Shown piece after piece: positions 1,962 through 23,457 of a DNA stretch of 26,125 nt. Positions within the stretch are counted from its first letter, which is position 1; every line of letters begins with the position of its first letter. The translations under genes and the position numbers were made by a program. The DNA lies in IMG/VR virus record IMGVR_UViG_3300023240_000100, positions 1 through 26,125 of that record. One strand, 5' to 3'. Below the pieces are notes generated by a model, which worked only from the letters and a program-made list of their open reading frames with translations, was not told the origin of the DNA and made no database searches. The DNA comes from a virus.

Positions 1962-4529
1962 TCAACTGAATAATTCCATGATATCGGTCACATATTCTAC
2001 CCCGACTTTGGGTGTAGGCCAACCGATAACGGCATAAACTCGGCCAATAACCGGAGAAACCAGTTTTTGATACATCAACTTGTAATCGGGTTTGATGATA
2101 TCCATAAATTCTGGTGGATATTCCTCATAAAATGCCATAGATTTGTAGTTGTGTGCATTTTTCAAGGTGTAAAAGAATTTAAACTTGTTGCCGTTCCCTA
2201 TTTTCACATATCGATTATCGATTTCAAGTTTTTCCAACATTTTGTTGTAATTGATTGCTGCCTTAGTATGATACGGTGTCCCTTTTGCGAAAATATTATC
2301 AACATATCCACTTTCACCTTTATCGTAATCATTGACCTTTTTTCTAAATGAAATCTGATCATGGTTCATTGCGCAAAAATCATCGTAACTTTTTGTAAAT
2401 AGTTTTCGTGATGCGTTTTCGTCTCTAGACATGATTGCTGTTTCGATATTGTGTTTGATTAGTTTCTTAACATCTTTCGACATGATAGACTTAGCAACTT
2501 CGATCCCTTTATAGATAAATTTATTACACGGAATTCCATCATTGTCCCTAATGTGAAGAATATAGAATTTCTTTTTCTGTAGAACCGCAATATCACAGAT
2601 TTTTTCTCTCTTGAAAAAATACCTTGGATCGGTAGAATTCAATTCTGATATAGCCCATTTTTGAATATGTTCATTTAAATATTCACCATATTCCTCAATG
2701 ATCCTTTGAGATTCGTTGGTGATAATATCATCCTTCAATAAGGTTGTATTATGATGAGCTAGTGATTTTGAAAATTGAAAAAATAATGAGTCCGTATCCG
2801 AATATTTACAAACATCATCAAAAGTGCATTCAACACCATCGGATAAAAACTTATCATATAGAATTTGTGCTCCTTGTTTTACAGACGCTTGTCCGGTCAA
2901 CGTGATAGATTCTGCATGATCGATATCAAACAATGGAGAATATATCTGACTAAAAATTCCATAGGTAGAGTTTAGAACTACTTTATACACATCAGAAAGA
3001 GTGTTATTATCTGAAATCTTTTCCTCATAAAATTTTATTTTATTAGGATCGGTTTCTATCATTTTAAGTTTACTATATTTAGAGACTTCGTTTTTGGCAT
3101 CAACCCGTTGAGCATATAGATTATCAATAAACTTAGGAATGATTCCCTTATTCTTTTGGGAATATAAAACATTAGACTTTGATAAAGACAGTTCTTCGGT
3201 TATAATAAGTTTGTCAAATTTTTCTTTGCTAAGTGTTACCGTTTTATGATTGGATAACAGTAATCGATATTCATCATTATCAAAGCTCGTAATTTTGGCT
3301 ATTTTGGTTTCGGGTGAAATATTAAGTGTAATGATCGTATTGGGATACAGTGAGTTTGCGTCATATGTAACAATGTCTTCATAAAGAGCCGGAACGGGTT
3401 CTTTGACGTATCCCCCTTCAAATGAAGTCTTTTGATTCTCTACATTAAAGGTTGGTATGATAAGTCCATCTAATGATGCTTGATGGGCTACGGCACCTGT
3501 AATAAGAGAAACCTTACCCATCGCCCTTTCCGGTTGAACGAATCCTTTGTTTGCTAAATTTTTGGTTAATTTTAAAAATTTTAACCTGTTTTCTAGTTTG
3601 ATTAGGATGCGTACATCTTGAATATTATATTTTACAAATTTTTCCCAATCTTGGTCGGCTAAATCGGTCAAAGATACTTGGTTGAATGATGTTTTTTGTT
3701 CGCCTAATTCATATTCTGCGATATAATTCAATGCATACGATTCTCGATCACCGAGAGAAAATGTTTTATATACATCCATATAATCTAAATGTGTAACACC
3801 GTAAATGATCCATCTATCTTGTTTTTGTCCTTTAAAATTGACGGATGCATTCGGCCTTAACCAAATTTTACGGACAGGAGATAATCGATCTGCTTCCTCG
3901 TTCCCGATAATTCTTTTGATTCTGTTGATGATATATGGTATATCATAACCCGCACTATTCCAACCAGTCACAATATCGGGATAATCATTTTCCCAAAATT
4001 TTAAAAAATTTTCCAATAAATCTTCTTCGGTCTTACATTTCATGTAAATAACTTCCGATAAATCTGATTTATATGAATTTTTCAATCCCCATGTATAAAA
4101 TTTTTGGGATAAGCTATCGTAAATCGTAATCAAATTAATAGGGTCTGTTGCCTCTTCCGGAGATGAAAATTTTCGATCTGTTGCGTATGTCTCAATATCT
4201 AAATAAATCGTTTTTAAAGGATATTCATCATGTATACCATCTTTGTATGAGTCTAGGAGAAACTGTTGTTCGGGTGGAAGATTTCCGAAAACACGTTTAA
4301 TTGGGTTGGTTTCCAAAAATTGTTTCTTTTTGAAGTTGTTCTCGAAAGTAATCTTTTTTAAATCGGTGTTAAAAATTGATTTTCCATCAGGATGCGTCGT
4401 TTTTGTTTCGATATAAAGGTATGGTTCAAAAGATGTTACCGATTCTATCCGTTTTCCCGAAGAATCCCATCCCCATAAATGAATAGATTCTAGTTTGCTG
4501 TTATAAAAAATATTCCGAAATCCTGTCAT
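1962..4529 (-). CDS. 43: Family B DNA polymerase, T4 gp43-like
   Basis: This is the replicative DNA polymerase with proofreading, 855 aa against about 898 in T4. The 3'-5' exonuclease motifs are Exo I with D111 and E113 (YLDIET), Exo II in GWNSAGYD (189-196) and Exo III in YNIQD (301-305). Polymerase motif A is YDANSLYP (389-396), motif B is KVVLNSTYG (516-524) and motif C is YSDTDS (576-581, catalytic D578 and D580). All key residues are present. The extreme C-terminus DIMELFS resembles the short hydrophobic peptide by which T4 and RB69 polymerases bind the sliding clamp. The gene heads the run to the AAA+ ATPase and is divergent from the HNH gene at 4667. No intron or split is seen, although a homing endonuclease sits just upstream. 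Confidence 0.97.
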   Translation of the reverse strand: MTGFRNIFYNSKLESIHLWGWDSSGKRIESVTSFEPYLYIETKTTHPDGKSIFNTDLKKITFENNFKKKQFLETNPIKRVFGNLPPEQQFLLDSYKDGIHDEYPLKTIYLDIETYATDRKFSSPEEATDPINLITIYDSLSQKFYTWGLKNSYKSDLSEVIYMKCKTEEDLLENFLKFWENDYPDIVTGWNSAGYDIPYIINRIKRIIGNEEADRLSPVRKIWLRPNASVNFKGQKQDRWIIYGVTHLDYMDVYKTFSLGDRESYALNYIAEYELGEQKTSFNQVSLTDLADQDWEKFVKYNIQDVRILIKLENRLKFLKLTKNLANKGFVQPERAMGKVSLITGAVAHQASLDGLIIPTFNVENQKTSFEGGYVKEPVPALYEDIVTYDANSLYPNTIITLNISPETKIAKITSFDNDEYRLLLSNHKTVTLSKEKFDKLIITEELSLSKSNVLYSQKNKGIIPKFIDNLYAQRVDAKNEVSKYSKLKMIETDPNKIKFYEEKISDNNTLSDVYKVVLNSTYGIFSQIYSPLFDIDHAESITLTGQASVKQGAQILYDKFLSDGVECTFDDVCKYSDTDSLFFQFSKSLAHHNTTLLKDDIITNESQRIIEEYGEYLNEHIQKWAISELNSTDPRYFFKREKICDIAVLQKKKFYILHIRDNDGIPCNKFIYKGIEVAKSIMSKDVKKLIKHNIETAIMSRDENASRKLFTKSYDDFCAMNHDQISFRKKVNDYDKGESGYVDNIFAKGTPYHTKAAINYNKMLEKLEIDNRYVKIGNGNKFKFFYTLKNAHNYKSMAFYEEYPPEFMDIIKPDYKLMYQKLVSPVIGRVYAVIGWPTPKVGVEYVTDIMELFS

Positions 4530-4570
4530 GGTTAGAGTTTATCACAATGAATGGAATTGTCAAGAGGTAC

Positions 4571-4652
4571 GATAAGTAGATAGACAGGAGTAAGGATATG
4601 TATCGAGAAAATACCTATCCGACCGAAATAATTAAAACGGTTTGTCCTCCTG
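4571..4652 (+). promoter_or_regulatory. Structured leader of HNH gene 1, with degenerate late-promoter box
   Basis: The region aligns with the leader of the second HNH gene at 6774-6853. A box GATAAGTA (4571-4578) stands where that copy has TATAAATA. A closing helix pairs CAGGAG (4585-4590) with CTCCTG (4647-4652). Inside it, GGATA (4594-4598) pairs with TATCC (4616-4620); after one mismatch GTAT (4600-4603) pairs with ATAC (4611-4614) around a 7-nt loop. A further hairpin pairs GACCG (4621-4625) with CGGTT (4638-4642). Together they form a three-way junction. The second copy has different bases in the same helices with pairing kept, which supports an RNA-level role. Confidence 0.6.
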
Positions 4653-4666
4653 CCTATAAAATAATT

Positions 4667-5449
4667 ATGAATACTGATACAGAACTCAAGGAGAAAAATG
4701 ATGATCTCAAACCGCCGTTTGATCGTAAAAAATATATGAGCGATTATAGTAAAAAATATTATGAGAAAAATAAAGATGATATAAAACAATACCATAAAAT
4801 GTATTACGACGATAATTCCGACGCAATTAAAAATACTGTTAAAATAAATAGAAATAAAAATTTATCTCGTTGTAAAGATAGTTGTAAAAAATATTATGAT
4901 AATAATAAAGAAAAAATTAAGGAATATCAGAGAATATATCAAGAAAAGAATAAAGAAAACCTTAAAAAATATCGGATAGAATATAAAAAGAATAATACCG
5001 AACTTATTAAAGAATCAAGTAAAAAAAGTTATCAAAAACATAAAGATTTTTTGAAAATTAAACAATACAAATACCAAAAAAACCGACTTGATACCGACCC
5101 ATCATATAAATTATTAAAAACGTTAAGACGCAGAATATTAAATGCTTTAAAGGGGAGTTCTATAAAAAAATCACGACGAACTTTGGATCTGTTGGGTTGT
5201 GATATTGTTTTTGCAAAACAGCATCTAGAATCTAAATTCGGAGAAGGTATGTCATGGGACAACCACGGAACGCACGGTTGGCACATAGACCATATTAGAC
5301 CGTGCGTGTCTTTTGATCTTTCAGATCCCGAACAACAACGCGAATGCTTCCATTATACAAATCTACAACCACTGTGGGCATCGGAAAATCTATCTAAAGG
5401 TGCGAAATTTACCCCAATTTCTGATCAGGATTCAGTTCAATTAGCCTAG
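4667..5449 (+). CDS. Free-standing HNH endonuclease 1 (homing type)
   Basis: This is a probable mobile site-specific DNA endonuclease of 260 aa from this start. The first half is a basic, low-complexity helical region of imperfect repeats of about 17 residues, such as YYDNNKEKIKEYQ. The C-terminal nuclease core has HIDHIRP (H206 and H209), followed by FHYTNLQPLW (N232) and ENLSKG, which fits an HNH/beta-beta-alpha-metal fold. An upstream in-frame ATG at 4598 would add 23 residues and has AGGAG seven bases before it. I prefer 4667 because the region between is conserved with HNH gene 2 as RNA structure and not as protein. The last 41 bases overlap the convergent glycosyltransferase gene, so the C-terminal tail after KGAKF is antisense to that gene. 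Confidence 0.88.
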   Translation: MNTDTELKEKNDDLKPPFDRKKYMSDYSKKYYEKNKDDIKQYHKMYYDDNSDAIKNTVKINRNKNLSRCKDSCKKYYDNNKEKIKEYQRIYQEKNKENLKKYRIEYKKNNTELIKESSKKSYQKHKDFLKIKQYKYQKNRLDTDPSYKLLKTLRRRILNALKGSSIKKSRRTLDLLGCDIVFAKQHLESKFGEGMSWDNHGTHGWHIDHIRPCVSFDLSDPEQQRECFHYTNLQPLWASENLSKGAKFTPISDQDSVQLA

Positions 5450-6728
5450 GAGACATTTCATTGCGTTCTTTTGATCCAAAAGATGTATAATATACCGCAC
5501 AATATTCTTGTATATGATCCTCTAACCACATACCCTCTACATATTTTCGAGAACGTTCGGATGCACCCATATAAGTGTCTAAGTCTCCGGTGATGTGTTT
5601 CAATTGATCGATCAAGTCTGAACCATTATCGAATTTATATTCTGCATTATCGTATGTACATAGGTTTTGGAAAGCTCCGGGTATTCCGAGAGCACCCGAT
5701 TCTATGGTTTTGATATTGGATTTACTCTTGTTAAAGATATTCCGGGTTAACGGCGCGTAAACTGCCTGACATCCAGTATCATAAATTCCTTGTGGGAGAT
5801 CCATTAAAGGACTCCAATCAACAAACATCATTTCCCCATTGTCTATGTATGGCTTGAGTTGGATAGGATAACATCCCTTGAAAACAAATTTAAAATCTTT
5901 TCGAGCTTTAATAATAGATTGTAGAACGAATTCAAAATCATCTTTACCATTGGTTTTATTCAGAACATCGATGTGGGTTCCAGATCCAGCATAAAGAATT
6001 CTCGGACGTTTTTTATTTTCTTTCCAAAGTCTTTCGATTCTTTCGGGATGATAAAATCGGTCGAGCCAGAACCGTGGAGCATAGTTAGGCACAACCGTAA
6101 CATTTTTATTACCAGTCTTATTTTTATAATATTCCTTCATGAAAGGACATGTCACGGTAATTTCATCCATCATTCCCATAATTTCCATGATATTATCTGT
6201 GATTTTTTTATCAACAAATGCCTCTTTACATCTATTGTAGTCTGGAATGTCTTCGGAAAAAACAATATCATCAATTTCGTATATTAGTTTCAATCCAGTT
6301 TGTTCTCGGAGTTTTGTAAGTTCTTTAATGAATTGATTTTGGTGGTCGGTTGCTTGTCTCTGCATTCTGACAGATTTTAATGGTAAATAAAACTTAACAT
6401 CGGTGATCATTTGAGTCAATGTTGACAATATTCCTTTATTGTAAGAATTCATAACCATTTCAGGCCACATAAGTCTCCAATATCCACATCCACCCATATC
6501 TGCTGCGTAGTTTAGTGATCTTGGTAAACCAGTTTCAGGCATTTCGATTGCTGGTGCAGCAGGAATCTTAATAACCTTTGCTCCAACATAAGAGAATGTT
6601 GGTAATCCAACGGGCGAACCTTGAGGTAGATTAGGAATTCCAGCCCTTAGTGGTTGATATTCGTAGACAACACTACTATCTGGATGTGTTAAAATTTGAG
6701 GTTTATTTTCTCGGATTGTAATAGCCAT
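5409..6728 (-). CDS. GT-B fold glycosyltransferase
   Basis: This 439-aa protein fits the GT4/group 1 glycosyltransferase superfamily. GCGYWRLMWPE at about residues 80-90 is a Gly-rich acceptor-side loop. Later come KLIYEIDDIVF (147-157), VTVVPNY (210-216) and a second Rossmann half starting at RPRILYAGSGTH (241-252). KFVFKG (280-285) follows, then a donor-binding motif KSKSNIKTIESGALGIP (334-350), with an acidic residue in the position expected for nucleotide-sugar ribose contact. No signal peptide or membrane segment is seen, so it is probably cytoplasmic. It is isolated between two HNH genes, divergent from the second (112 bp to the first ATG) and convergent with the first. The substrate is unknown; virion or host-surface glycans are possible. 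Confidence 0.87.
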   Translation of the reverse strand: MAITIRENKPQILTHPDSSVVYEYQPLRAGIPNLPQGSPVGLPTFSYVGAKVIKIPAAPAIEMPETGLPRSLNYAADMGGCGYWRLMWPEMVMNSYNKGILSTLTQMITDVKFYLPLKSVRMQRQATDHQNQFIKELTKLREQTGLKLIYEIDDIVFSEDIPDYNRCKEAFVDKKITDNIMEIMGMMDEITVTCPFMKEYYKNKTGNKNVTVVPNYAPRFWLDRFYHPERIERLWKENKKRPRILYAGSGTHIDVLNKTNGKDDFEFVLQSIIKARKDFKFVFKGCYPIQLKPYIDNGEMMFVDWSPLMDLPQGIYDTGCQAVYAPLTRNIFNKSKSNIKTIESGALGIPGAFQNLCTYDNAEYKFDNGSDLIDQLKHITGDLDTYMGASERSRKYVEGMWLEDHIQEYCAVYYTSFGSKERNEMSPRLIELNPDQKLG

Positions 6729-6773
6729 ATTTGTCTAATATTTAGTAATGTATTTGGAAATATCAATCTATGG

Positions 6774-6781
6774 TATAAATA
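6774..6781 (+). promoter_or_regulatory. T4-type late promoter box upstream of HNH gene 2
   Basis: The sequence TATAAATA is an exact match to the T4 late promoter element recognised by gp55-containing RNA polymerase. A gp55-like gene is present at 20993-21640. Initiation five to seven bases downstream would place the transcript start at about 6787, right at the start of the structured leader. The 15 bases from 6775 align with 4572-4586 of the first HNH copy with three differences. Confidence 0.6.
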
Positions 6782-6785
6782 GTTA

Positions 6786-6853
6786 AACAAGAGTAAGAAA
6801 TATTATCTTATGAATAGTATTTCGACCGGAATAACTCGGGATGTCCTCTTGTT
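6786..6853 (+). promoter_or_regulatory. Structured leader of HNH gene 2
   Basis: The closing helix pairs AACAAGAG (6786-6793) with CTCTTGTT (6846-6853), eight base pairs. The first internal hairpin pairs GAAATA (6797-6802) with TATTTC (6818-6823) and continues with TTAT and ATAG around a 7-nt loop. The second pairs CCGG (6826-6829) with TCGG (6836-6839), counting one G-U pair. The architecture is the same as at 4585-4652, while paired positions have changed in step (GGAG/CTCC there, AGAG/CTCT here; GGATA/TATCC there, AAATA/TATTT here). The GAGTAAG start, the CGACC segment and the GTCCTC segment are conserved. Confidence 0.6.
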
Positions 6854-6864
6854 CAAATATAATT

Positions 6865-7569
6865 ATGAATAACAAAGAAAAAATCCAATCGGATACATTA
6901 GATAGAGAAAAATATCTCCAAAAACGTCGAGAATCTTATATAAGAGATAAAGATAAAAGGAAAATTTATCTATTAAAAAATTGTGATCGAATAAAAGAAG
7001 TAAGAAAATCTTATAAAAACTCAAATTCTGAAAAAATAAAATCCCAAAATAAAGAATATAGAGATAATCATAAAAATCATATACGAGATTATAACCGAGA
7101 ATATTATATCAACAATGTAGAAAATATTGATAGATGGATCAACCAAAATCAGGAAAAAATTAAAGGTTACAAAAGAAAATACCAAGAAAAAATTAAACCT
7201 ATTCGTGGTAAGCTTAGGAAAGAAAAAATTTTAAAAAATCCGGTTTATAAACTTGAGGAAACCCTTAGAGGTAGATTATATTCAGCAATCAAATCACAAT
7301 CAACGAGAAAATCCCAAAAAACTATGGAACTATTAGGATGTTCTTCCGATTTCGCTAAAAAACATTTAGAATCACAATTCCGTGACGGAATGAGTTGGGA
7401 CAATCACTCCCTTTTCGGATGGCATATCGACCATATAAGACCATGTGCTTCATTCGATCTTTCAGACCCAGAACAACAGAAAGAATGTTTCCATTATACC
7501 AATCTACAACCCCTATGGGCATCTGAAAATCTTTCTAAAGGTGATAAATTTATAACCGCAAAGACGTAA
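6865..7569 (+). CDS. Free-standing HNH endonuclease 2 (homing type)
   Basis: This is a paralogue of the HNH gene at 4667-5449, 234 aa from this start. It has the same plan: a basic, repetitive helical N-terminal region (for example YNREYYINNVENIDRW), then an HLES-F-GMSWDNH linker. The nuclease core follows with HIDHIRP (H187 and H190), TNLQPLW (N213) and ENLSKGDKF. The C-terminal 60 residues are nearly identical to the first copy, while the N-terminal repeats differ a lot. An in-frame ATG at 6841 would add eight residues but lies inside the conserved leader, so 6865 is preferred. The last 20 bases overlap the 3' end of gp46 convergently. A late promoter and structured leader precede it. Confidence 0.87.
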   Translation: MNNKEKIQSDTLDREKYLQKRRESYIRDKDKRKIYLLKNCDRIKEVRKSYKNSNSEKIKSQNKEYRDNHKNHIRDYNREYYINNVENIDRWINQNQEKIKGYKRKYQEKIKPIRGKLRKEKILKNPVYKLEETLRGRLYSAIKSQSTRKSQKTMELLGCSSDFAKKHLESQFRDGMSWDNHSLFGWHIDHIRPCASFDLSDPEQQKECFHYTNLQPLWASENLSKGDKFITAKT

Positions 7570-14003: not shown

Positions 14004-15460
14004 AATTTGATTTTGTAGTGTTTATATTTCCTTTTATCGTCATAATTAATGATAAATCTGGAAATGTCAAGATTATTTACTCCATTATCTTCCAATAGTG
14101 TTAAGCCCTCGATTTCGGATTTCCATTTTTCAGAATTTTTAAGATGTTGTTCGTGTGCGCCGGATATTTCTAAACGATGTTGGTGGGGGGTTGAAAAATA
14201 TTTACCAAATGGGTGTTGATAGATTGTTAATCCTTTTCTAATAATTCGATGGTGTAGACACGAATCCTCTTTACCCCACCCAACATAATCATTTGGATAT
14301 CCATTCACCATTTGGAAATGTTCTTTCTTAAAAAGAACAACACCACCCATAATTGCCGCAGGATCTTCGATATAATTGAATTGACTACAATATTTGCTCA
14401 AATGTGTGGGATTTTTAGGGTAAGAATAATCAGAAAATGTTGGAATTAGATCCACATCATGAATACAGTGATAATCAGAGTCCTGATTCAATAAAAATCC
14501 GAGATTATTGAGCAATCCCTTATTAAAAAGTTCATTATCATCTTGTTCTATGACCGAAATATCGAAGTTTTGGACCTGTCGGGCTATATATTCATGTAAA
14601 ATCGGAACAACGGTCTTTAAAGCCTCTTCTCGGTCCCTATAAGGTATGATCACAGACAACTTCTTATCGGTATTTACCAGTTTCTTTCTTGATAGTCGGG
14701 TTTCGATATCGATTAATGTTTTTTCTAACCCCTTTATCCCGACATCGGTAATTTCGTTGGTGAAATGTCCATGTTTTTTGATGAAATAAGACGCTGATCG
14801 GTCCCAATTCTCTTTATAGTTGGGTTTATTTGTGATTGTGCTATTTTCATCAGATCCTTTGATGGTGGTGAGGTATTTTTCAGAGTTTAATACATCAGGA
14901 AAATACCAAAAATTTGGATTTAATGCTTTTTTTGATAAATCATAAGAGTACGATATATGTTCGAAGCTATTGACCATATTTTCATCATATAATCCTATTT
15001 TTTTAAAAATATTGGAATGTGTATAACAAAAAGCAGCTTGGGGGTTCCTATATAGACCCAATGACGCCCCATTCGTTGATGTGTATGTATATTGTAAAGA
15101 TTTCTCATTTCCAGCAACTTTTTCGAACGAAAGTTGATATATTCCAAAAATATTTGCGGTATCTATGTATTTTTGGAACACATTATGGTCCGTAATAATT
15201 ACATCGTCGTCCATAGTGAATATATCAGTACATCCAACATCTAAAAGTTTTTCAATCCCCCTATTTTTAGCCCATGCTACACCATTTTGTTTATCGGAAG
15301 TGATAATATGGTCAGCGTCCGACGGATTTGTATAATGGAAGGTTCCGTCATTAACAATAACAAAAAAATCTATGACATTTCTCGGAATAGCCGACAACAC
15401 CTGTTCATAATAATCTTTTCTATTGAATGTCGTGAGACACAACCCTATTTTTTTTACCAT
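14000..15460 (-). CDS. GT2-GT7 fusion: beta-1,4-galactosyltransferase-like bimodular glycosyltransferase
   Basis: This 486-aa protein joins two glycosyltransferases. The N-terminal part (1-255) is GT2-like: IGLCLTTFNRKDYY, VIVNDGT, and DIFTMDDDVIITD (79-91) with the metal-binding DDD. The C-terminal part (about 268-486) follows the animal B4GALT/GT7 pattern step by step: IIPYRDREEAL (271-281), LFNKGLLNNLGF (311-322), HDVDLIP (334-340), MGGVVLFKKEHFQMVNGYPN (371-390) and GWGKEDSCL (394-402). The GWGxED box normally contains the catalytic and acceptor-binding acids. The N-terminal domain is a paralogue of the protein at 16426-17235. The ORF starts right after a decayed HNH fragment and overlaps its downstream gene by ATGA. 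Confidence 0.86.
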   Translation of the reverse strand: MVKKIGLCLTTFNRKDYYEQVLSAIPRNVIDFFVIVNDGTFHYTNPSDADHIITSDKQNGVAWAKNRGIEKLLDVGCTDIFTMDDDVIITDHNVFQKYIDTANIFGIYQLSFEKVAGNEKSLQYTYTSTNGASLGLYRNPQAAFCYTHSNIFKKIGLYDENMVNSFEHISYSYDLSKKALNPNFWYFPDVLNSEKYLTTIKGSDENSTITNKPNYKENWDRSASYFIKKHGHFTNEITDVGIKGLEKTLIDIETRLSRKKLVNTDKKLSVIIPYRDREEALKTVVPILHEYIARQVQNFDISVIEQDDNELFNKGLLNNLGFLLNQDSDYHCIHDVDLIPTFSDYSYPKNPTHLSKYCSQFNYIEDPAAIMGGVVLFKKEHFQMVNGYPNDYVGWGKEDSCLHHRIIRKGLTIYQHPFGKYFSTPHQHRLEISGAHEQHLKNSEKWKSEIEGLTLLEDNGVNNLDISRFIINYDDKRKYKHYKIKL

Positions 15461-15527
15461 AACCTACCTTATCATCTTTTTTTAAATTGTCAATCCACCA
15501 AAGAAGTTGTAAATTAGTGTAATGAAA
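15461..15527 (-). pseudogene. Remnant of an HNH endonuclease C-terminus
   Basis: On the minus strand these about 67 bases translate as FHYTNLQLLWWIDNLKKDDK. This matches the C-terminal FHYTNLQPLWASENLSKGDK of the two intact HNH proteins at 11 or more of 20 positions. Nothing upstream resembles the HIDH part, and the segment stops exactly before the ATG of the glycosyltransferase at 15460. It is a decayed fragment of a third HNH gene, in the orientation opposite to the intact copies. A minus-strand frame continues through it to 15420 but has no coding merit. Confidence 0.7.
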
Positions 15528-15559
15528 AATTATTTTTGTATGGATATCACTCAAAAAAA

Positions 15560-21643: not shown

Positions 21644-23059
21644 TTATAAATTTTTTTCTGTGTAAGGATACAATTCCTTCATATAAAGTTTCTTACGTTC
21701 TTCTCGATGGATATTCGCATAATGGGTATTATCAGAAATATCAAAAATTCGAGCCAATTCCTTTGTTGGGTGCAATCTAAGTGCTCTCCCAATACTCTGA
21801 ATAATTTTTATTTTTGCTTTTCCGGCTGATGCGAAAATAATGTTGTGCAAGTTTGGAATATTAATTCCGGTAGAAAATATTTTAGTTGATGCAATTACGA
21901 TCACATCAGAACGTTCTTCCATCAATTTACGAATAGTTTCTCGATCTTCCAATTCGGTAGACCCTTGGATGAAATAAACGGGTCGATCAGTTTTTCCTTG
22001 CAATTTTTTTAAAATATTGTCACCATTTATAATGCGGTCAACCATGATCACAGTATTTGTGGACAATTTTAAAGAAAGGTTGGTGATAACGTCATTACGT
22101 CGAGTATCATTGATCAAAAAATCCAATTCTTTAAGATATTTAGATGCAGGAGCATCTGGATCGGATGTGAAAACTTTGCGACCATGGTTTATATTTAAAA
22201 TGTAAATATGAAAATTTGATACATAATCATCATTTTTAAGTTCGTCGGTTTTTTTCTCAAATAAAACGGAACCTATCTTACCTATGATATTCCATTGATC
22301 TATTTTTTCCGATGGCATCGTTCCGGTGAGTCCAAATTTGTAAGGTGTATCAAGAAATTTAAATATTTTATTTAATTGATTTTGTCTCCGCAAAACATGG
22401 GTTTCATCTATGATAAAAATATCAATATCAGCCATGATCGAAAGATCTGTGTTCTTTCCTACGAGATATTGCGTTCCGGCAATAATAATATTGGCATCAC
22501 GATCTAATTTATTCTTCCCGGACCATTTTGTGATATCGGTAAGACCATATTCCTCAAAATCTTTCGAAGTTTGTTCAACCAATTGAAGAGTTGGAACCGT
22601 CACCATGACCTTTGCATCTGGTTTCCCAATATGTTTACGAATATTTGTGATCAATCCACCCGCTAAGAGAGTTTTTCCTCCACCAGTCCCAACCAGAATG
22701 ACCCCACTACGATGCGCAATAGCCGTTCTAATGGCTTCTGATTGAAAATCTCGGTAAGGTATCGATAGTTCGATTAATTTATCATCACCGAACTTTAAAG
22801 CGAAATAATCTTTAACGAGCATATCAACTTTATATGAAAAACTATGAGCATCTAAAACCGATGTTACATTATCAAGCAATCCAGAGTCGAATTTACCTGT
22901 TGGGGTGATTACATAAAGTCTGGCTGATATGTAAGGTTTTTTCGATATGAATGCAGGATTTGCAACGGAAAAAGCAGATCGAACGATTGAAATCGTATCA
23001 ACATCACCAACCATCTGTAACAGATTTTTTTTCTTACCACTAAATTCGATTGTAATCAC
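21644..23059 (-). CDS. uvsW: UvsW-like SF2 helicase
   Basis: This 471-aa superfamily 2 helicase probably remodels stalled forks and recombination intermediates and clears R-loops, as T4 UvsW does. IPYRDFQSEAI (100-110) is the Q-like motif. GTGGGKT (124-130) is Walker A, DETH (218-221) is motif II, and FGLTGTMPS is motif III. STKIFSTGINIPN is motif V and QSIGRALR is motif VI. The first 95 residues are a separate small domain, as in UvsW. The start codon is GTG at 23057-23059, two bases after the stop of the uvsY-like gene, and no ATG lies near. T4 UvsW is about 587 aa, so this one is shorter. Confidence 0.92.
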   Translation of the reverse strand: MITIEFSGKKKNLLQMVGDVDTISIVRSAFSVANPAFISKKPYISARLYVITPTGKFDSGLLDNVTSVLDAHSFSYKVDMLVKDYFALKFGDDKLIELSIPYRDFQSEAIRTAIAHRSGVILVGTGGGKTLLAGGLITNIRKHIGKPDAKVMVTVPTLQLVEQTSKDFEEYGLTDITKWSGKNKLDRDANIIIAGTQYLVGKNTDLSIMADIDIFIIDETHVLRRQNQLNKIFKFLDTPYKFGLTGTMPSEKIDQWNIIGKIGSVLFEKKTDELKNDDYVSNFHIYILNINHGRKVFTSDPDAPASKYLKELDFLINDTRRNDVITNLSLKLSTNTVIMVDRIINGDNILKKLQGKTDRPVYFIQGSTELEDRETIRKLMEERSDVIVIASTKIFSTGINIPNLHNIIFASAGKAKIKIIQSIGRALRLHPTKELARIFDISDNTHYANIHREERKKLYMKELYPYTEKNL

Positions 23060-23061
23060 GT

Positions 23062-23457
23062 TTAAGATTCTTCCATTTTTATCAATTTAGCCAGATTGCT
23101 GAAATCAAATGTCATACTAGAAAAAATCTTTTCAACTCGGTCTAAATATTCTACCAACAATTCAGCATTTTCGATTTCTTCATTTATAGCCTGAATTTTT
23201 TCAGATGATTCTATTTTTAGATCTAACGATGCTTTAGGAATTCCTTTTGGTATCTGAGCATATAAAGCCTCCATAACACTTTTTCTAATATCCCTTTTCT
23301 TTTTCTTTAAGGTATTTAAAGATTTTTTAGCCAACATTAAACGAGAAACCCACTTATGTCTAACCGCTGGTTGTTTCAATTGCTTATCTATGATATTTAA
23401 TTGATCCAACTGCGTATCGATATTAATTTCCTTTAAATAGGTATTGAACAATTCCAT
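23062..23457 (-). CDS. uvsY: UvsY-like recombination mediator
   Basis: This 131-aa, highly helical and charged protein is close in length to T4 UvsY (137 aa). It shows a similar layout: VRHKWVSRLMLAKKSLNTL followed by a Lys-rich helix (KKKKRDIRKS), a middle break with Pro, and a C-terminal helical part (LVEYLDRVEKIFSSMTFDFSN). UvsY loads UvsX recombinase on single-stranded DNA covered by gp32. Direct sequence identity is low by eye, so the call rests on length, composition and position next to UvsW. It is the first gene of the leftward run and borders the putative origin region. Confidence 0.65.
   Translation of the reverse strand: MELFNTYLKEINIDTQLDQLNIIDKQLKQPAVRHKWVSRLMLAKKSLNTLKKKKRDIRKSVMEALYAQIPKGIPKASLDLKIESSEKIQAINEEIENAELLVEYLDRVEKIFSSMTFDFSNLAKLIKMEES

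Follow-up and report, generated by a model that had tools for sequence, protein, structure and literature searches.

The window considered here is a stretch of 26,125 nucleotides from the virus record IMGVR_UViG_3300023240_000100, also contained in a 41-kb IMG/VR contig (3300022885_000039). To judge from its gene content (a gp43-type polymerase, gp46/gp47-like genes, a UvsW-like helicase and glycosyltransferases), it is part of a T4-like phage; gene names other than the Pfam-based ones were assigned by reading the sequences. Two HNH genes lie on the plus strand of this DNA, opposing a minus-strand operon: the first, HNH1 (4667..5449), encodes 260 amino acids with N-terminal helical repeats and a C-terminal HNH motif (WHIDHIRP...FHYTNLQPLW), while the second, HNH2 (6865..7569), encodes 234 amino acids, the two proteins being 49% identical. 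HNH1 is located between the divergently oriented gp43-like family B DNA polymerase gene (polB; 1962..4529, minus strand) and a glycosyltransferase-like gene (GT; 5409..6728, minus strand) that separates the two HNH units, and HNH2 is located between GT and gp46. A sigma70-like promoter (TTGACA plus a -10-like hexamer) stands immediately upstream of polB at the HNH insertion, both in the window (4530-4571, minus strand) and in contig L106, and is apparently retained in the gap of some relatives with an empty site.

In 14 relatives, in fact, GT joins polB directly, across about 40-70 nt and with no HNH gene, and in most of the same 14 gp46 likewise joins GT directly. On the strength of these comparisons, the HNH units are intergenic insertions, and their family would consist of free-standing homing-type endonucleases of uncultured T4-like phages. 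The nuclease signature WHIDHI.P...FHYTNLQPLW is present and all six HNH members match the endonuclease VII family of PHROG, while no Pfam or NCBIfam match was found for the protein. The N-termini (window 4667-5100 and 6865-7200) are arrays of basic helices of about 14 residues (Y..N.E.I..Y.K.Y), predicted with high confidence as consecutive helices; a protein model (pLDDT 68, shallow alignment) displays a long basic helical array followed by a small, low-confidence C-terminal domain.

Each HNH gene is preceded by a leader of about 72 nt and, further upstream, by a late-promoter-like box, GATAAGTA at 4571..4578 for copy 1 and TATAAATA at 6774..6781 for copy 2 (both plus strand). A first-pass annotation of this DNA had described the two leaders as homologous and as sharing one three-way junction; they do sit in front of the HNH genes, and each adopts this fold by itself. 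Folding, covariance model and homologue alignment together delimit the cores on the plus strand, at 4583..4654 and 6786..6853. In copy 1, helix P1 pairs 4583-4590 with 4647-4654, P2 pairs 4594-4603 with 4611-4620 and P3 pairs 4623-4625 with 4638-4640, leaving the P3 loop (4626-4637) and the junction strand J3/1 (4641-4646) unpaired. The corresponding elements of copy 2 are P1 (6786-6793/6846-6853), P2 (6797-6806/6814-6823), P3 (6826-6828/6837-6839), the P3 loop GAAUAACU (6829-6836) and J3/1 (6840-6845). The shortfall of copy 2, initially put at about five bases, is a gap of 4 nt that falls entirely within the P3 loop. In both window copies P1 begins 4 nt after the box, and the 3′ end of the leader lies 10-12 nt ahead of the HNH ATG; in all readable leaders the ATG follows 9-10 nt past the end of the covariance model.

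The three helices differ in their degree of conservation among the leader homologues. P1 comprises 8 bp, of which the inner GAG/CUC is invariant; P2 comprises 10 bp that vary freely, apart from an invariant first G-C pair, and carries a variable loop; P3 has 3 bp (CCG/CGG) plus optional extra pairs, and two of its three pairs are compensated. G-U pairs are rare throughout. Conservation extends to unpaired positions, namely UWA in J1/2, RA in J2/3, (G)AAYAAY in the P3 loop and the UGUC that ends J3/1. Specifically, two subtypes can be distinguished by J1/2, J2/3 and the P3 loop: UAA/GA/UAAY in both window copies and the L070 group, and UUA/AA/CAAY in L106, L135, L155 and L267. Past P1 there is a conserved start context like AUAAUUAUGAA, with no Shine-Dalgarno sequence between P1 and the ATG and, in most leaders, a start region predicted to be mostly unpaired.

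Several lines of evidence argue for this fold. In isolation, the window copies form the same three-way junction at -17.2 kcal/mol (z -2.9) for copy 1 and -18.0 kcal/mol (z -3.05) for copy 2, and seven leaders folded singly all give it, with z from -2.6 to -5.7. The closing-helix change from GGAG/CTCC to AGAG/CTCT in P1 was correctly read in the first-pass annotation. For P2, its claim that pairing is kept also stands, while the change given as AAATA/TATTT was off by one position: in register, GGATA/TATCC becomes GAAAT/ATTTC, and an additional G-C to U-G change occurs further up the helix. Over the two window copies and the near-copy L005, pairs changed on both sides number 6, against 2.0 in shuffles. 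In a hand alignment of nine distinct leaders, all sampled from one phage lineage, compensatory (double) changes are found in 16 of the 21 core pairs; homologues with broken helices were looked for, and the helices proved instead to be maintained by compensation. A model-fitted alignment, which is biased towards structure and for which the hand alignment serves as control, has 93.1% of its pair cells paired, compared with 73.0% after shuffling and at most 48% with the partners slid, and gives a covariation score of 0.523 against 0.173. The 16 pairs kept by paired mutations therefore identify the leader as a real RNA structure. A coding explanation was rejected, since the leaders have no reading frame in common and some of their frames contain stops, as the first reading of the region had also held.

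The orientation of the leader has to be derived from its surroundings. Its reverse complement folds too, and therefore orientation rests on the promoter box and on the spacing to the ATG. A [TG]ATAA[AG]TA-like box stands shortly upstream of P1 in each leader, for example GATAAATA in L106 and TATAAATA in L070 and L135. The same class of box is found 13-21 nt ahead of the ATG of genes of the 114-kb relative G007 (L269-L274), a tail-sheath-like gene among them, and at distances of 13 and 15 nt from the start codon in leaderless sister HNH genes of the same phages (L054 and L060). Over 50 upstream regions the box was counted 8 times, against 2.9 in a Markov control and 6 on the reverse strand; with so modest an enrichment, the box is supported by its position and not by its number. 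As ordinary late genes and leaderless HNH sisters keep the box at such a short distance from the ATG, the RNA appears as an added module placed between promoter and ORF. In general, phages of this group seem to make late mRNAs that are nearly leaderless and mostly without Shine-Dalgarno sequences; since few such sequences occur in these phages, their lack in front of the HNH genes is unremarkable. The placement at the 5′ end of a late transcript, proposed from the beginning, is thus supported by the promoter box; from the observed sequence architecture we infer a transcript that would start at the leader.

Covariation by itself cannot separate RNA from single-stranded DNA, and it is position, orientation and start-codon spacing that make RNA by far the likelier. 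The palindromic DNA might otherwise act as DNA, either as an operator or cruciform through which HNH represses its own late promoter, or as an end of the mobile unit. I-TevI does repress its own late promoter via an operator resembling its homing site (PMC2988022), P1 is a terminal inverted repeat, the leader can look as if inserted between promoter and ORF (L106 compared with L060), and the rarity of G-U pairs would suit a DNA element. However, a duplex operator needs no three-helix fold, 16 compensated pairs or conserved loops, the leader is always downstream of the promoter at a fixed distance from the ATG, and a comparison by eye showed no similarity between it and the empty insertion sites. 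A function as DNA is, in our judgement, very unlikely.

The distribution of the leader was followed with a covariance model built on the two window copies and one near-copy, a check that the first-pass annotation had itself proposed. A first search covered 92 sources, nearly all of them HNH loci, and matched L070, before an HNH gene, with an E-value of 2e-11; among contigs retrieved via the neighbouring GT gene, L106 was matched at 2e-8. DNA-pattern scans of IMG/VR, in which an HNH gene was not required, led to well-scoring leaders in L149, L163, L165, L153, L135, L130, L155, L288 and L315, and a covariance search of whole contigs returned 14 strong matches in 12 of 33 records. In total, nine distinct leaders are present on about 14 viral contigs, some of which stop within the HNH ORF or at its start, and every covariance-positive place, including those reached through the HNH-blind patterns, precedes an HNH ORF of the same family or an HNH remnant. 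Leader and HNH gene occur together between GT and polB (copy 1, L106 and L135), between gp46 and GT (copy 2), before a UvsW-like helicase gene (the L070 group, the equivalent site of the window, 23059-23062, being empty) and after a zinc-ribbon-like gene (L155). Before a primase-like gene, in L267, L285, L288 and L315, the leader is followed only by the C-terminal scrap RCFHYTNPQSSWWWENLSKGKRII; this is an internally deleted HNH gene with a surviving leader (L267:1501-1690), identical or near-identical in at least three contigs. The sole departure from UGUC, UUCC, is found in this remnant leader of L267, as expected from relaxed selection beside a gutted HNH gene.

Outside this set, matches were few. 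Among about 155 loci of other HNH relatives searched with covariance model R2, the leader was absent except in L070, and therefore does not characterise the nuclease family as such. In a poorly resolved tree of the HNH domain the leader-bearing genes occupy three separate positions; this would imply that leaders were exchanged or were lost repeatedly, although a single clade is not rejected (p-AU 0.129). No leader was detected by DNA similarity in named phages, a 45-nt stretch that matched in Leptolyngbya phage Lbo-JY46 not being a leader, and a pattern search of prokaryote genomes yielded three stretches, none with a convincing score. Rfam gave no match at the gathering threshold in the window and none of relevance at E<=1 in three loci; a known RNA class or a group I intron was rejected on this basis, in agreement with the initial impression, and the leader is undescribed in the open-access papers found. 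It is put forward as a new RNA-family candidate for Rfam.

One RNA always adjoining one nuclease family, persisting next to a gutted HNH gene and facing a protein with a long basic helical N-terminus, could also form, together with the HNH protein, a mobile ribonucleoprotein, whether of the OMEGA type or of another kind. HEARO/OMEGA RNAs, associated with IscB, are likewise structured RNAs upstream of an HNH-containing mobile nuclease; the leader differs from them in its length of about 70 nt, in the lack of RuvC and of Rfam similarity, and in having nuclease relatives that do without it. HEARO had already been set aside in the first-pass annotation because no RuvC domain was seen, and HEARO/OMEGA is rejected here too, given no match to the HEARO covariance model, no RuvC family match, and a protein model consisting of a helical array and a small low-confidence domain. 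Moreover, these phages also carry closely related HNH genes that lack a leader, and the nuclease family is therefore not dependent on one. A ribonucleoprotein partnership accordingly strikes us as extremely improbable; equally far-fetched would be the idea that, by binding its own leader in trans, the HNH protein selects its targets or moves, as a minimal HNH-plus-RNA system without RuvC.

RNA structures that control phage homing endonucleases have precedent (PMC2988022; PMC3014915), even if the control of most free-standing homing endonucleases of T4-like phages is "not obvious" (PMC2988022). What is new here is a conserved three-way junction on a presumed late transcript, at several insertion sites. 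In the T4-type hairpins the Shine-Dalgarno sequence is sequestered on early transcripts and the hairpin is missing from late ones (PMC2988022). The leader resembles mobE, I-TevI/II/III and segB of T4-like phages in combining an RNA structure before a homing endonuclease with a late promoter; in those systems, however, the late promoter is placed such that the 5′ strand of the hairpin is left out of the late mRNA, which is thereby free, and a Shine-Dalgarno sequence is sequestered on the early one, whereas the entire structure of the leader follows the box and sequesters nothing. A ribosome-binding-site-sequestering hairpin of this type was therefore rejected: there is no Shine-Dalgarno sequence before the ATG, most leaders are predicted to leave the start region largely unpaired, and in all intact copies the box precedes the complete structure, so that a late RNA starting there would include it. 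In other words, the leader alone does not repress in the known way. The hairpin before seg43(25) of Aeromonas phage 25 (PMC2988022) comes closer, being a structured RNA directly before a free-standing T4-like homing endonuclease gene with a free start region; it is, however, one hairpin in one case before a segD-like gene, while the leader belongs to an HNH family and has a three-way junction, conserved unpaired motifs and several sites.

Taken together, the leader is probably a cis-acting structured 5′-UTR control element of mobile free-standing HNH endonuclease genes, and the likeliest form of such control would be a protein-bound translational operator. Late RNA polymerase would start just ahead of P1, and the HNH mRNA would then open with the three-way junction, whose conserved unpaired nucleotides (UWA, RA, (G)AAYAAY and UGUC) might most simply serve as a binding surface. 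Either the HNH protein or another phage protein, involved in replication or in translation control, would bind the junction beside the start codon; as 10-12 nt separate the end of P1 from the AUG, the binder would get in the way of the 30S subunit. By blocking 30S loading it may cap endonuclease output, following the logic of the T4 gp43 and gp32 operators, and the fold may in addition cap the mRNA 5′ end against decay. As to candidate binders, the RegA repressor family had no match in these contigs, where a control search was likewise silent. The first-pass annotation had wavered between a regulator, a stability element and a part of the mobile unit: of these, a regulatory role is the likeliest, and the RNA does accompany the mobile unit. 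It is a compact, covariation-supported RNA that moves with one endonuclease family to several sites.

The position of the structure would also fit a role in mRNA stability alone. A ligand-free 5′ stabiliser or ribosome standby element, in which P1 shields the mRNA 5′ end or keeps the start open with no protein involved, would account for P1 beginning about where the late transcript should (4 nt past the box in both window copies) and for the predicted mostly unpaired start codon, and the non-sequestering hairpin before seg43(25) (PMC2988022) offers a precedent. Yet a plain stabiliser needs neither conserved unpaired nucleotides nor a conserved P3 loop, and other late genes manage without any leader. 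We hold this explanation to be possible but rather less than likely.

For the control element favoured here, one specific ligand can be considered. The P3 hairpin could be an operator for a gp43-type DNA polymerase, free polymerase repressing HNH translation and coupling the endonuclease to replication. Like P3, the operator of T4 and RB69 gene 43 is a hairpin; both have a YAA(C/U) loop and stand about 40 nt ahead of the start codon, and the AAYAAY loops of the leaders are of the ANYAAC-like kind seen in the T4 gp43 operator. In particular, the T4 gene 43 operator reads CAAGAGCCTAATAACTCGGGC and copy 2 has CAAGAG...CCGGAATAACTCGGG; the leader loops are UAAC, UAAU, CAAC and CAAU, compared with UAAC in T4/RB69 and CAAC in a SELEX variant (PMC3014915); and the 5′ edge of P3 lies 39-44 nt before the AUG in the window copies, where the T4 hairpin lies about 40 nt before it. 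P3 differs, however, in being embedded in a three-way junction before an HNH gene, and an examination of 16 contigs with polB showed no such hairpin in front of that gene, nor does a P3-like hairpin occur 24-25 nt ahead of any other gene. The loop match was noticed post hoc; P3 is to be regarded as a candidate site, and polymerase binding as unlikely. If the P3 loop were a polymerase site, endonuclease dosage would be linked to replication.

Two further stretches of DNA concern the HNH insertions themselves. In L109 and L110, about 600 nt of unidentified sequence lies between gp46 and GT, which corresponds to the HNH2 site of the window. In the window, a C-terminal HNH remnant (FHYTNLQLLWWIDNLKKDD) without a leader is present at 15420-15530 on the minus strand, flanked by a glycosyltransferase-like gene and by the gene at 15536, and is a further, decayed insertion.
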